Assembly (NCBI GenBank): GCA_937921595.1
Contig: CAKZTD010000326.1
Span: 1 to 41,624, forward strand
Reading direction: 5' to 3'
Length of the DNA stretch: 41,624 bases
Source of the DNA: an uncultured Saprospiraceae bacterium
GTDB taxonomy: Bacteria; Bacteroidota; Bacteroidia; Chitinophagales; Saprospiraceae
Part shown: positions 12,050 through 19,358 of the stretch, piece by piece
Position numbering within the stretch: the first letter of the stretch is position 1
How the letters are laid out: each line of letters begins with the position of its first letter
The notes under the pieces: generated by a model
What the model was told of the DNA's origin: nothing
Seen by the model: the letters and a program-made list of their open reading frames with translations, nothing else
The model's database searches: none
Translations under genes and position numbers: made by a program

Positions 12050-13726
12050 TTATCTCTCCTTACAACTTTGCAAAAACACAGCAACTTTTTTATTATCATT
12101 TTTCAATGCATACTCAGCTGCGGTCCGTCCTTTGCCATCTTTAAGTTTTATATTTGCGCCGTTCTTAACCAACATCTGAGCCATCTCAACATTGCCATGT
12201 TTAGCACAATAAAACAAGGTTGTTTTTTTCTGTTTATTCAAAGCATTAATATTCGCGCCTTCCTTGATCAACAGATCTATGATATATTGATTGTTCTTTT
12301 CTGCTGCATGCATCAGTGGCGTTTTATTTTCAGACAGCATATCTAAGTTAGCACCTTCGTCTATTAAAAACTGAACTACTTCTTGTTGATCGTGATGGAT
12401 TGCAGCTTGAAGTAAAGTAATTCTTTTACTAAAGTAATGCTTATTGATACGATCTCCTTGATCACTGGTTTTGACAAAAGATTTCACATTGGTAAGATCA
12501 CCATGTTTAATTGCTTTGAAAACATTAACGACAACATCCTCTGTCATAAAAATTTCAACAGGTGTTTGCTCACCGTCAACATTTGAAGCCATTATTTTAT
12601 TTCCATGATAGTAAAGAGAATTAGTAATTTTAGCACTAAGTGCGATATCTTGTTTTACATCAATCGCGATAACTCTTCCTTCAAAAAGACTAGAAACTCT
12701 TGGTACAATGGTATGACCAACGACCACATATTTAGCTCCGTAAAGGTCAAGTGTTTTATTGACTGATTCTTGAGAAAGTTTTTCTCTGAAATATCCTCGA
12801 TACCACATTGGTCCAATTTTGCTAAAGACAGCAGTTCCACCACCACCTTTTTGTTCCAATCGGAATTTATCCATTCCATAATATTGGCGAGCATATTTAT
12901 TCATGTCTTCCAAACGTATTCTTGAGTTCGCCATTTCAGGACTAATCCCACCATGAACGAAAATAGTCTTACCAATTTTTTCGACAACATTCTTACTTCT
13001 TAACCATCGACCAAGTTCTGAATCTACGGAGAATAAACCTTTATAGGGCATCTTCATAGATTTAGCAGCCTTGATGTATTTTTCTTTTACATATCGAACA
13101 TCTCCTCTCATATTCATCTCTTCATGGTTGCCAATAATGAAGTGTACCATCCCACCTTTCTGCTCTGCTTCTTGCTCCAGTTTGTAAACCAACCAAAGCA
13201 CTGCCGTAACATTATAACCTCTGTCAAAAAAGTCACCGACTAAAACTAAATGACCTTTTCCAAAAGACCAAGACATGTTTTTATCAATAACACCATTATT
13301 AAAAAGTGATTGTTTAAAAGTTTCGAAATTACCTTCAATATCCGAAATCGCATATAACTTTTCAGGTTGAGGATAAACCGTTGGAGGTGCCTCATGTTTG
13401 TGTTTTATAGAAAATTTAAAAGAAGTACCTTTTTTATCATCAACCTTACATCTTAAAGAAGGAACTTCCTTTGGAGAGTTAAACGTTTCTTGTTTGACAA
13501 CTGCTTTACCTGAGCTGAAGTGGATATTCTTAATGCACACTTTTCCTTTTTTGTAAAAGACATGAGGTCCTTCTACAAATGTGCCTGAAATATCATCTCC
13601 ACTTTCAACACATAAAATGTCCTCTTGCGGGTTTGTATTTGCGAAAATACTACCTGCAATGAATATTAAAGCCATGGCAATGCCAATGGATGTGAGCTGT
13701 TTTCTTGCGATTTTCATAAATGTCAT
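12050..13726 (-). CDS. Secreted metallophosphoesterase with C-terminal ankyrin repeats
   Basis: A 558-residue exported protein (signal peptide to about residue 30; Met4 is an alternative start). After a Cys-containing N-terminal region (about 30-115) comes a calcineurin-like phosphoesterase core. Its motifs are SDIEGN (128-133), GDFFDRG (164-170), GNHEE (199-203), HGG (258-260) and a later GHT. The first motif has Glu where the PPP family usually has His (DxH). The C-terminus (about 420-555) holds three to four ankyrin repeats (for example TPLMHAAEKNNQYIIDLLIKEG). A likely role is hydrolysis of phosphoesters in the periplasm or outside the cell, with ankyrins binding a partner. The gene stands alone, with a TAnnTTTG box and an inverted repeat upstream. 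Confidence 0.85.
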   Translation of the reverse strand: MTFMKIARKQLTSIGIAMALIFIAGSIFANTNPQEDILCVESGDDISGTFVEGPHVFYKKGKVCIKNIHFSSGKAVVKQETFNSPKEVPSLRCKVDDKKGTSFKFSIKHKHEAPPTVYPQPEKLYAISDIEGNFETFKQSLFNNGVIDKNMSWSFGKGHLVLVGDFFDRGYNVTAVLWLVYKLEQEAEQKGGMVHFIIGNHEEMNMRGDVRYVKEKYIKAAKSMKMPYKGLFSVDSELGRWLRSKNVVEKIGKTIFVHGGISPEMANSRIRLEDMNKYARQYYGMDKFRLEQKGGGGTAVFSKIGPMWYRGYFREKLSQESVNKTLDLYGAKYVVVGHTIVPRVSSLFEGRVIAIDVKQDIALSAKITNSLYYHGNKIMASNVDGEQTPVEIFMTEDVVVNVFKAIKHGDLTNVKSFVKTSDQGDRINKHYFSKRITLLQAAIHHDQQEVVQFLIDEGANLDMLSENKTPLMHAAEKNNQYIIDLLIKEGANINALNKQKKTTLFYCAKHGNVEMAQMLVKNGANIKLKDGKGRTAAEYALKNDNKKVAVFLQSCKER

Positions 13727-16807: not shown

Positions 16808-18307
16808 TCAATTCTCCACATTAATTCGTTTTGCAAGGCCCTTCGGAATTCGAATCGTCTTTTCATTATAAATAATCTCCACGATATCCTCTTCCTTTTT
16901 TACAATACTAAAAACAGCTCCAGGGAGTAATCCCAATTGCCACAGCTCAGAACTAATTTGAGAATCATTTTGCTTTTGAGCAATCGTAGCTTTTTGATTC
17001 ATAGCCAGTTTGTTCAAAGGATTCGCAGGGATACCTTTCTTTGAAGGAATTGGTGAACCATGTGGATCCATAGAAGGGAAGCCTAATTTTTCATCGACCT
17101 CATCCAAAAGTTCATCCGTTAAAAGGTGTTCATACTTTTCCGCATCTTCATGGATTTGTTCTTCCGTCAATCCTATTTGTTGGACCAAATAAGTTTCCCA
17201 AAGTCGATGCGCACGAACCAATTTCTTTGCTTCATCAATCCCATCCTCCGTTAGTTGAAGACTATTTTTATTGGTAATGATTAATCCATTTGTTCCTAAC
17301 GTTTTTAAGTGTCCTTTTAGACGACCACTTTTAAAACCCAGTTTTTCAAATAAGTTTTGAAAAACTAAATTTCCTTTTTCATGTAACTTTAAAGCTTGTT
17401 TTAAAGTGTCTTCTAATTCTATTTTTAATTGTAATTTTCGTTTTCTGAAAAAGCTAAAAAGCAATCCTTTTTTCGGTGCAAAGAATACAGCTATTAAATA
17501 AATCATAGCAGCAGTTATGGCCATCGCTGGTCCTGGTGTGGTTTCAAAATAATCTGCGAGAATCATCCCAATGACTGCGGAAAGAAAGCCTACCAAACCT
17601 GCGATGACTAATACTCGATTTAGACGATCAGATAATAATAATGCGGTAGAAGCTGGAGTGATCAACATCGCTACAACCAGAATAACACCTACGGTTTGTA
17701 AAGAGGATACCACCGCAAAAGAAAGTAACAACATCAAGAAATAATGAATCACTTTTACAGAAATCCCCATGGTCTCTGCAATCACAGATTGGAAAGTAGA
17801 AACAAAAAGATAACGGTAAAAAACGATAATACTAATGATAACGTAAACCGTTACAAATGCGGTGAGATAAATATCTTCGTTAGAAATTCCGAGGATTTGG
17901 CCAAAAAGAAAATCCTTTACATCGAGGTGAACTCCATCTTCTCTGCTTATTTGAGATATACCCATGACACCAATGGAAAACATAGCAGTGAATACAATTC
18001 CGATAGCCGCATCATTCTTGGTTTTTACATTATTCTGAATCCAGGTAATACCAATTGCTGTAATTAATCCGGCAATGGAAGCACCAACGAAAAAGCCTAA
18101 TGTACTGTATCCTACAATCATAAAAGCGACTACAACACCTGGCAAAATAGCATGAGAAAGAGCATCTCCAATCAAGGCCATATTTCTTAAAACGATAAAA
18201 CAGCCAAGAACGCCACAGGTAATTCCAACCATGGAAGAAGCAATTAGAGCTCTGATTGCCCATTCTTCTGTAGTAAATGTGTGTAATGTATCAAGTAATC
18301 CTGCCAT
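16808..18307 (-). CDS. Metal ABC transporter permease fused to a DtxR/MntR-type metal sensor
   Basis: A 499-residue fusion. Residues 1-285 form an ABC-3 (ZnuB/MntB) permease with about eight membrane helices and the conserved DALSHAILPG (49-58). Residues about 295-430 are a complete DtxR-like module: a winged helix, then the metal-binding/dimerisation region. Ligand positions align with DtxR at exact spacing: His367, Glu371, His386, Glu390, Glu393 and His394 correspond to DtxR 79, 83, 98, 102, 105 and 106, with Glu for Cys102 as in MntR. Asp300 may match MntR Asp8, but Lys303 occupies the Glu11 position. A FeoA/SH3-like domain follows (about 431-499). No ATPase or binding-protein gene is adjacent. 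Import of Mn, Fe or Zn with self-sensing is inferred. Confidence 0.88.
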   Translation of the reverse strand: MAGLLDTLHTFTTEEWAIRALIASSMVGITCGVLGCFIVLRNMALIGDALSHAILPGVVVAFMIVGYSTLGFFVGASIAGLITAIGITWIQNNVKTKNDAAIGIVFTAMFSIGVMGISQISREDGVHLDVKDFLFGQILGISNEDIYLTAFVTVYVIISIIVFYRYLFVSTFQSVIAETMGISVKVIHYFLMLLLSFAVVSSLQTVGVILVVAMLITPASTALLLSDRLNRVLVIAGLVGFLSAVIGMILADYFETTPGPAMAITAAMIYLIAVFFAPKKGLLFSFFRKRKLQLKIELEDTLKQALKLHEKGNLVFQNLFEKLGFKSGRLKGHLKTLGTNGLIITNKNSLQLTEDGIDEAKKLVRAHRLWETYLVQQIGLTEEQIHEDAEKYEHLLTDELLDEVDEKLGFPSMDPHGSPIPSKKGIPANPLNKLAMNQKATIAQKQNDSQISSELWQLGLLPGAVFSIVKKEEDIVEIIYNEKTIRIPKGLAKRINVEN

Positions 18308-18426: not shown

Positions 18427-18446
18427 TTTTTAGACTAGTCTAAAAA
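18427..18446. promoter_or_regulatory. Perfect 20-bp palindrome, candidate DtxR-family operator
   Basis: TTTTTAGACTAGTCTAAAAA reads the same on both strands. Its core TTAGACTAGTCTAA resembles DtxR/IdeR/MntR-type boxes (TTAGG..CCTAA style). It lies 120 bases upstream of the permease-DtxR fusion start and 4 bases beyond the stop of the preceding phosphatase gene. With no loop it is a poor terminator hairpin and a better operator. Confidence 0.6.
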
Positions 18447-18449
18447 TTG

Positions 18450-19358
18450 TTATTCTGAAATAAGCTCTTTTAGCATTCCTTCTTTTAAGGCATATTCAGA
18501 AACAGAGATGGTTTTGATATCGGTTTTTCCAAGAATAAACTCAATTAATACTAGAGCAACGATGATCATTTCTGCTCGATTATTAGGAATGTCTTTCATA
18601 GCTAGACGTTCTTGAATAGTCGTTTTGATTTGTTGTTGAAAGAAAGGATAAAAATCACTCACGTTTACGACACCATGGATTGGGGTCAGTTTTTCTTTAC
18701 AAAGGAGATTTTCTAAAACATCAAATGTACCGGAAGCTCCAATTAATATAGAAGGTTTATGGACTAGGATCTCTTGAAATAGGGGAGCTAAAATATCTTC
18801 CAGAAATTTTTCTAGGATGTCAATTTCGGAAGGAGAGATTGGATCTTTTTTATGGAATTTATTATAAAGAACAGCCACGCCAATTGGAAAACTTTGAGCC
18901 CATTTTACACCATCTTGATCAGCCAGAATAAATTCAACACTACCACCACCAATGTCCATGATTAATCCAGTTTCTTTACTCAAAGGAACAGCTTGGATCA
19001 CACCTTTGTAAATTAAATCTGCTTCTCGATCACCAGGAATTAACTGAATTTGAATTCCAGTTTCTTTAAAAACTTTTTGAATAAAATCAGGTCCATTACT
19101 AGCTGTTCTTAAAGCAGCAGTTCCGATTGCTTTTACTGTTTTAACGTCGTATTGATCAAGAATATTTTTAAAGGATAATAAGGCATTCAATGCTCGATCA
19201 AAGGGAGCGAGCCCAATGGTATTAATACCGTCTTCGGCTAATTTTATATAAATCCGTTTTCGATAAAGTTCTTTAAAAATTCCGGAGTTCGAAGCTTCTG
19301 CTATTAATAAATGAAAGGTGTTCGTTCCCAGGTCAATGACTGCAAATGTATCTGTCAT
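18450..19358 (-). CDS. Ppx/GppA family exopolyphosphatase/pppGpp phosphatase
   Basis: A 302-residue ASKHA-fold phosphatase. The nucleotide/phosphate-binding signatures are near the N-terminus (VIDLGTNTFHLLIAE, residues 7-21) and in the middle (LIMDIGGGSVEFILAD). It lacks the C-terminal HD-like domain of long E. coli Ppx/GppA, as do many short bacterial members. It hydrolyses polyphosphate or the 5'-phosphate of pppGpp; which one cannot be told here. The gene lies 6 bases after the lipoprotein gene upstream of it, so both are probably in one transcript. Confidence 0.88.
   Translation of the reverse strand: MTDTFAVIDLGTNTFHLLIAEASNSGIFKELYRKRIYIKLAEDGINTIGLAPFDRALNALLSFKNILDQYDVKTVKAIGTAALRTASNGPDFIQKVFKETGIQIQLIPGDREADLIYKGVIQAVPLSKETGLIMDIGGGSVEFILADQDGVKWAQSFPIGVAVLYNKFHKKDPISPSEIDILEKFLEDILAPLFQEILVHKPSILIGASGTFDVLENLLCKEKLTPIHGVVNVSDFYPFFQQQIKTTIQERLAMKDIPNNRAEMIIVALVLIEFILGKTDIKTISVSEYALKEGMLKELISE

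Follow-up and report, generated by a model that had tools for sequence, protein, structure and literature searches.

A metal ABC permease fused to a DtxR-type tail in Saprospiraceae, a candidate metal sensor attached to its importer

Accounts of how metal ABC importers are controlled deal mostly with transcription. In Chlamydia trachomatis, a permease and a DtxR-type domain are fused in one protein, YtgCR (CT069/CTL0325); its tail has been reported to be released by cleavage and to repress ytgABCD and trpBA (PMC6504234, PMC7755916), and no iron-dependent regulator other than YtgR has been identified in Chlamydia (PMC6504234). Orthologous permease-DtxR fusions have been cited from 11 phyla in a 2017 review (PMC5599777). 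The fusion architecture is already known, and what is new here is how the lineage of the window differs, the window being the whole stretch of 41,624 nucleotides from an uncultured Saprospiraceae bacterium that was analyzed. An earlier note on this DNA, made from the letters alone, knew of no functional study of such a protein; one exists for the kind, namely that of the Chlamydia YtgCR, which describes cleavage of the tail and repression by it. In the literature searched, which covered few subscription journals, permease-repressor combinations were represented by Chlamydia reports only, the combination of DtxR, ABC transporter and trans-inhibition gave nothing, and no report was found in which a domesticated repressor exerts product feedback on a metal ABC importer.

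The fusion gene and its importer

The fusion gene is encoded on the minus strand, which the earlier note had not given, in a frame with no internal stops (Table 1). That a permease runs in frame into a winged helix, a metal-binding domain and a FeoA-like domain, as had been read from the letters, was borne out by the intact frame, by Pfam and, for the winged helix, by a structure model. The ABC-3 match (PF00950) lies above the curated cut-off, in a domain with a PsaB-like fold in which the channel Asp and His are present (D48 and H52, at the aligned positions of Asp46 and His50, which coordinate Mn in PsaB), and the Fe_dep_repr_C match (PF02742, residues 353-421) reached 3e-26, with 91.5 bits against 27. 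The FeoA domain was detected by Pfam in 19/30 fusions, and some orthologues are without it. With the DtxR DNA-binding model PF01325, no match was obtained by Pfam in the fusion protein up to an E-value of 1. The earlier note had left it to a structure prediction whether the helix-turn-helix is intact: in a monomer model the tail has the whole winged-helix fold, but the sequence of this part is poorly conserved among the fusions. In the same model a single helix continues from the linker into DtxR helix 1.

Table 1. Positions of the fusion gene, its domains and neighbors in the window, and of related genes in other genomes
Feature	Position	Strand	Remarks
Fusion gene, ABC-3 metal permease and DtxR-type sensor tail	16808..18307	minus	one frame, ATG start, 499 aa, with stop
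ABC-3 permease domain, residues 16-276	17480..18262	minus	Pfam ABC-3, 3e-71
Linker, residues 277-298	17414..17479	minus	length constant in 27/27 fusions; inside modelled helix 282-310
Winged helix, residues 299-356	17240..17413	minus	fold kept, sequence drifting
Metal-binding and dimerisation domain, residues 357-421	17045..17239	minus	H367, E371, H386, E390, E393 and H394, plus D300 from helix 1
FeoA/SH3-like domain, residues 430-498	16814..17020	minus	Pfam FeoA, 1e-7
Perfect 20-bp palindrome TTTTTAGACTAGTCTAAAAA, predicted DtxR-type operator	18427..18446	.	upstream of the fusion gene
Ppx/GppA phosphatase gene	18450-19358	minus	just upstream of the fusion gene
Metallophosphoesterase and ankyrin repeats	12050-13726	minus	one 558-aa frame
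DtxR-FeoA-FeoA genes, examples	L069:3581-4618 (G005); L054:1689-2780 (G023); L073:11-1033 (G029); L225-L236		

The search for the same architecture across genomes, which the earlier note had suggested, found the fusion in other genomes with the His/Glu ligands conserved. These are full-length fusions with 50-85% identity to the window protein, and their recurrence in many genomes led us to reject a frameshift, or a join made in assembly or sequencing, as the origin of the frame. Among the best 80 matches of the contig scan, 79 titles name what we take to be Bacteroidota, and one is a MAG titled Thalassobius. An internal translation start that would give a free tail was likewise rejected: a conserved Met that might serve for it is absent from the linker, Met being found there in 3/27 fusions. 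As to the neighbors, frames that start similarly to the Ppx/GppA phosphatase gene (judged on the first residues only) precede the fusion in at least 9/29 other loci.

In the whole genome, one ABC-3 permease (PF00950) and one TroA/ZnuA-type SBP (PF01297) were found. The SBP and an adjacent ABC ATPase are located on another contig (C239), behind a separate dtxR, and would pair with the fusion permease. In four other genomes (G007, G009, G025 and G041) dtxR, SBP, ATPase and fusion are consecutive on one strand, and in G041 the SBP and the ATPase share one frame. Among known structures the SBP is nearest to manganese/iron-type proteins, and its ligand positions are His, His, Glu and Asp in 33/33 distinct relatives (35 rows, two of which repeat the SBP of the window genome); the Glu in this set presumably marks the Mn/Fe class. 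Together, fusion permease, SBP and ATPase are expected to make up an importer of the Mn(II)/Fe(II) class. Since a single permease was found in the genome, and since the manganese importers PsaBC and MntBC are homodimeric (PMC11779740), two copies of the fusion permease probably pair in the transporter, as a homodimer that carries two DtxR-like tails side by side.

The metal site and the DNA-reading part in the tail and in related proteins

The six ligands that the earlier note had listed proved correct: H367, E371, H386, E393 and H394 were invariant in 30/30 aligned fusions, and E390 was kept in 29/30, with Asp in L030. D300, which had been overlooked, was also invariant (30/30), and we take its position to be that of MntR Asp8 and DtxR Met10. 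In addition, E299 and K303 were nearly invariant among the 30 aligned fusions. The claim that Lys303 is the one departure from the family was wrong and is rejected here, because Lys occupies this position in 25/25 separate DtxRs from the same genomes; DtxR presumably has Arg13 there. In the more distant clade B (80 fusions), the five His/Glu positions were kept in 80/80, and at the sixth, Glu was found in 65 and Asp in 15. Position 300 was Asn in 80/80. The earlier note had named the loss of both the ligands and the DNA-contact helix in close homologues as what would speak against its reading; what was found is that conservation of the helix is lost and the ligands are kept.

The tail and the separate DtxR were compared in a matched set of 25 genomes that have both. 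The fusion occurs in 28 genomes of clade A, of which G002 and G013 (no cognate DtxR) and G011 (fusion cut by a contig end) are left out. Of the row sets, A1 omits L034 (cut), L035 (no tail), L109 and L110, and A2 omits L085 (masked bases). In the tails of these 25 genomes the mean pairwise identity was 0.31 for the winged helix and 0.67 for the metal domain, with 0.675 for the permease, whereas in the separate DtxRs the winged helix reached 0.61 and the metal domain 0.70. Over the 21-aa recognition segment the values were 0.29 (tail) versus 0.66 (separate DtxR). When genome pairs were taken one by one, winged helix identity was lower in the tail than in the separate DtxR in 300/300 of them, and metal domain identity in 199/300; the picture was the same when G017 was removed as well. 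Relative substitution rates were 1.95 for the winged helix and 0.55 for the metal domain of the tail, and 0.83 for the winged helix of the separate DtxR. The FeoA part was also fast, with a relative rate of 2.04 in the tail and 1.31 in the separate DtxR, so that parts of the tail besides the DNA reader are relaxed.

The Pfam models gave the same division. At an E-value of up to 0.01, PF01325 was detected in 1/30 clade A tails, 0/27 clade B tails and 25/25 separate DtxRs, and PF02742 was detected in every member of these sets. Since PF01325 is unmatched in the fusion protein and the fold alone is present, the tail is filed, as far as sequence goes, as a DtxR-derived sensor and not as a repressor. 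In clade B, where 61 of the 80 loci, those with a separate dtxR inside the flanks, could be compared, the contrast had the same direction and was milder: winged helix versus metal domain identity was 0.40 versus 0.69 in the fusion and 0.58 versus 0.74 in the separate DtxR. The recognition segment had a positive net charge in 25/25 tails, on average +3.8, compared with +1.0 for the separate DtxR; a charge of this kind would be in keeping with contact to either DNA or lipid headgroups.

A second kind of protein in the phylum, of about 345 aa, combines a DtxR-type winged helix and metal domain with two FeoA stretches (three were scanned), and carries one hydrophobic N-terminal stretch (by eye) and a linker of the fusion kind. 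A strong match to this DtxR-FeoA-FeoA protein was found in 40/395 sampled phylum genomes (E 7.5e-67 or better), and at E 1e-30 in 46/395, one of these being a permease fusion. The gene lies directly before the GTPase gene of a split feoB in 15/15 loci (12 of the 40 strong matches and three relatives), and a further separate dtxR is found just upstream of it in 10/15. The DtxR ligands were kept in 15/15 of these proteins, the sixth being Glu in 13 and Asp in 2, and PF01325 was detected in 1/15. With 0.48 identity in the winged helix versus 0.67 in the metal domain, the DNA-reading part is less drifted than that of the fusion tail.

A wider permease scan scored up to three candidates per genome, and its counts are lower bounds. 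Five ABC-3 permeases from three Bacteroidota genomes (L134-L136), which include two adjacent pairs, have a tail of about 90-100 aa that consists of a winged helix only, the metal domain being absent, and at least some further permeases end at the same point.

A predicted operator and the genomes that depart from the pattern

With no more than one mismatch allowed, the 16-bp core of the palindrome, TTTAGACTAGTCTAAA, is present at just two sites in the 8.04-Mb genome (a reversed control pattern, at one). The second site lies ahead of the separate dtxR that heads the SBP and ATPase genes (G000:C239), with 23 bp between it and the first ATG of that gene. A chance palindrome was rejected, since both genome sites of the core precede genes of the importer system. 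In the relatives, a degenerate motif that had been relaxed after these relatives had been seen matched at 13/16 or better upstream of 21/23 separately placed fusion genes (shuffles, 37/1150), and 20/23 still reached 13/16 or better when the window's own 16-mer was used as the motif. The operator was found in 24/25 upstream regions of separate dtxR genes (shuffles, 37/1250), and at 0/4 of the fusions that stand directly behind dtxR-SBP-ATPase. The loose pattern TTTAGRNNNNYCTAAA showed no enrichment across the genome, with 17 sites versus 23 for the reversed control, and therefore it defines no wider regulon. It is most likely the separate DtxR that binds the shared TTTAGAYTARTCTAAA operator. 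The tail is a less likely operator reader, since a constant operator would be hard to read by a helix that drifts so much, and the helix of the separate DtxR is constant.

Four genomes depart from this pattern. In G017 the separate DtxR (L049:3022-3732) has an intact recognition helix and has lost four of the six metal ligands, the operator is absent upstream of both the fusion and its own dtxR, and the SBP was not found in this genome. In G013 a separate DtxR was not found, and the operator is absent at the fusion and near SBP-ATPase. The tails of both genomes kept their metal ligands, and both cases fit the separate DtxR as the operator reader. The third genome, G002, is of the same genus and listed as 99% complete: a cognate dtxR was found neither beside SBP-ATPase nor elsewhere in the assembly, but full operator-motif matches are present at both loci (L218:1390 and L008). 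It has only a second DtxR type, of 42% identity, whose own upstream region is without an operator site. This genome could be explained by a recent loss, by the second DtxR or by the tail itself. Finally, in G036 (L091:3645-4628) the permease has no tail, and dtxR-SBP-ATPase and operator-like sites remain, so that the tail is dispensable there.

Readings of the tail and comparison with known systems

We favor, at a probability of roughly one half, the reading in which the tail senses metal and acts directly on its transporter, and transcription is controlled by the separate DtxR. Sufficient cytosolic metal would bind to the conserved His/Glu/Asp sites of the tails, the two metal-bound tails would close on each other in the manner of a DtxR dimer, and the helix leading from the linker into the sensor would relay this closure to the permease or the ATPase, so that import would be slowed; the separate DtxR would repress transcription of both loci. 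By analogy with trans-inhibition, the outcome would be product feedback exerted by a domesticated repressor. A metal site that is kept next to a DNA-reading part that has drifted suggests, at the level of sequence, a direct throttling of import. Of the two options that the earlier note had offered, gating or feedback appears favored in this lineage because of the invariant ligands, the unconserved DNA-contact helix, and a separate DtxR that shares the operator and has a conserved recognition helix; a tethered repressor is less favored, given the drifted helix and the separate DtxR. Several observations weigh against the sensor reading: the one fusion that has been studied, YtgCR, is cleaved and acts as a repressor; G002 keeps its operators; the recognition segment of the tail is positively charged, and the winged-helix fold is intact in the model; the FeoA part of the tail drifts fast as well; in clade B the winged helix is less relaxed (0.40); and G036 does without the tail.

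The main rival reading, which we hold less likely, is that the tail, either cleaved or tethered, is a metal-dependent repressor of the fusion gene and of the other genes of the importer, like the YtgR part of YtgCR. The domain order is that of YtgCR, in which the tail is cut off and acts as a repressor, a strong palindrome is placed upstream of the fusion gene, the recognition segment is positively charged on a winged-helix fold that is intact in the model, and the tail possibly binds to the operators that G002 keeps in spite of its missing cognate DtxR. However, the operator is conserved and the recognition helix of the tail is not, as is also seen in the single PF01325 detection among 30 tails, and the operator is common to the separate DtxR, whose helix is conserved. 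Furthermore, G017 and G013 lost the operator along with the function or the presence of the separate DtxR, yet kept the ligands of the tail, and the linker is without a conserved Met for an internal start (3/27).

A sequestration mechanism, for which we take MalK-MalT and PtsG-Mlc as parallels, would have the tail and the separate DtxR form mixed dimers at the membrane, so that the occupancy or the number of transporters sets repression. The metal and dimerisation domains of both proteins are of one family and conserved (0.67 and 0.70 within the sets), and a recognition helix that is free to drift in the tail, with an operator shared by fusion and separate dtxR, would agree with it; but genomes whose separate DtxR is missing (G013) or degenerate (G017) retain the tail, and we consider this mechanism improbable. 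At least as improbable is a relic or packing role, in which the tail only stabilizes the permease or the ATPase interface and senses no metal: the five winged-helix-only tails, the tailless permease of G036 and the orthologues that miss the FeoA part would be in line with it, but the five His/Glu positions and D300 are kept in 30/30 fusions, and in the distant clade the five positions are kept in 80/80 with Glu or Asp at the sixth.

FeoA has been reported to act on the FeoB GTPase (PMC8980893). Since the DtxR-FeoA-FeoA genes adjoin feoB and FeoA acts on the FeoB GTPase, the sensor module seems to be tied to a second, unrelated importer. We therefore put forward, tentatively and with the odds somewhat against it, a wider reading of the feedback proposal, in which the DtxR fold was recruited in Bacteroidota as a metal sensor attached to transporters, in two importers that are unrelated to each other (the ABC-3 permease fusions and, before the split feoB, the membrane-anchored DtxR-FeoA-FeoA proteins, taken jointly), which would throttle Mn/Fe import post-translationally, and in which the separate DtxR keeps transcription. 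The fusion is a widespread natural construct in which a sensor is wired to a pore via a linker of constant length, and it offers a testable case for direct metal feedback. It also casts doubt on whether the Chlamydia YtgR model, that of a cleaved repressor, can be extended to all permease-DtxR fusions, and the separate DtxR of the Bacteroidota lineage of the window is supplied with a predicted operator.

In comparison with the repressors DtxR, MntR, ScaR, SloR and DR2539, the window tail differs in that it is fused to the membrane and has an unconstrained recognition helix. We take its ligand set to be a mixed one, with the DtxR-type H79/E83/H98 positions and the MntR-type Glu and Asp. PsaBC and MntBC share the permease fold and the metal-coordinating Asp/His with the window permease, but PsaB, of 282-290 aa, has no DtxR tail, and presumably the same holds for MntB. 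The clade B fusions of Bacteroidota (SBP-ATPase-permease::DtxR-permease) are the same fusion with the same ligand positions, and a separate dtxR is inside the flanks in 61/80 loci; they differ in their 28-36% identity to the window fusion (among the matches listed), in having Asn instead of Asp at position 300, in the absence of FeoA, and in that they usually adjoin a plain second permease. The likeness to YtgCR, taken from its description, is that of an N-terminal permease of an iron-linked metal ABC importer followed by a DtxR-like repressor domain. YtgCR is part of ytgABCD, with YtgD as a second permease, whereas one permease was found in the window genome; compared by description, the window fusion adds FeoA, a coexisting separate DtxR and an unconserved DNA-contact helix. 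In the trans-inhibited importers MetNI and ModBC, the regulatory domain sits on the ATPase (PMC7367683), and there this domain is not of the DtxR type. The logic proposed for the window fusion would nevertheless resemble theirs, in that the importer is shut when a cytosolic ligand occupies a domain joined to it.
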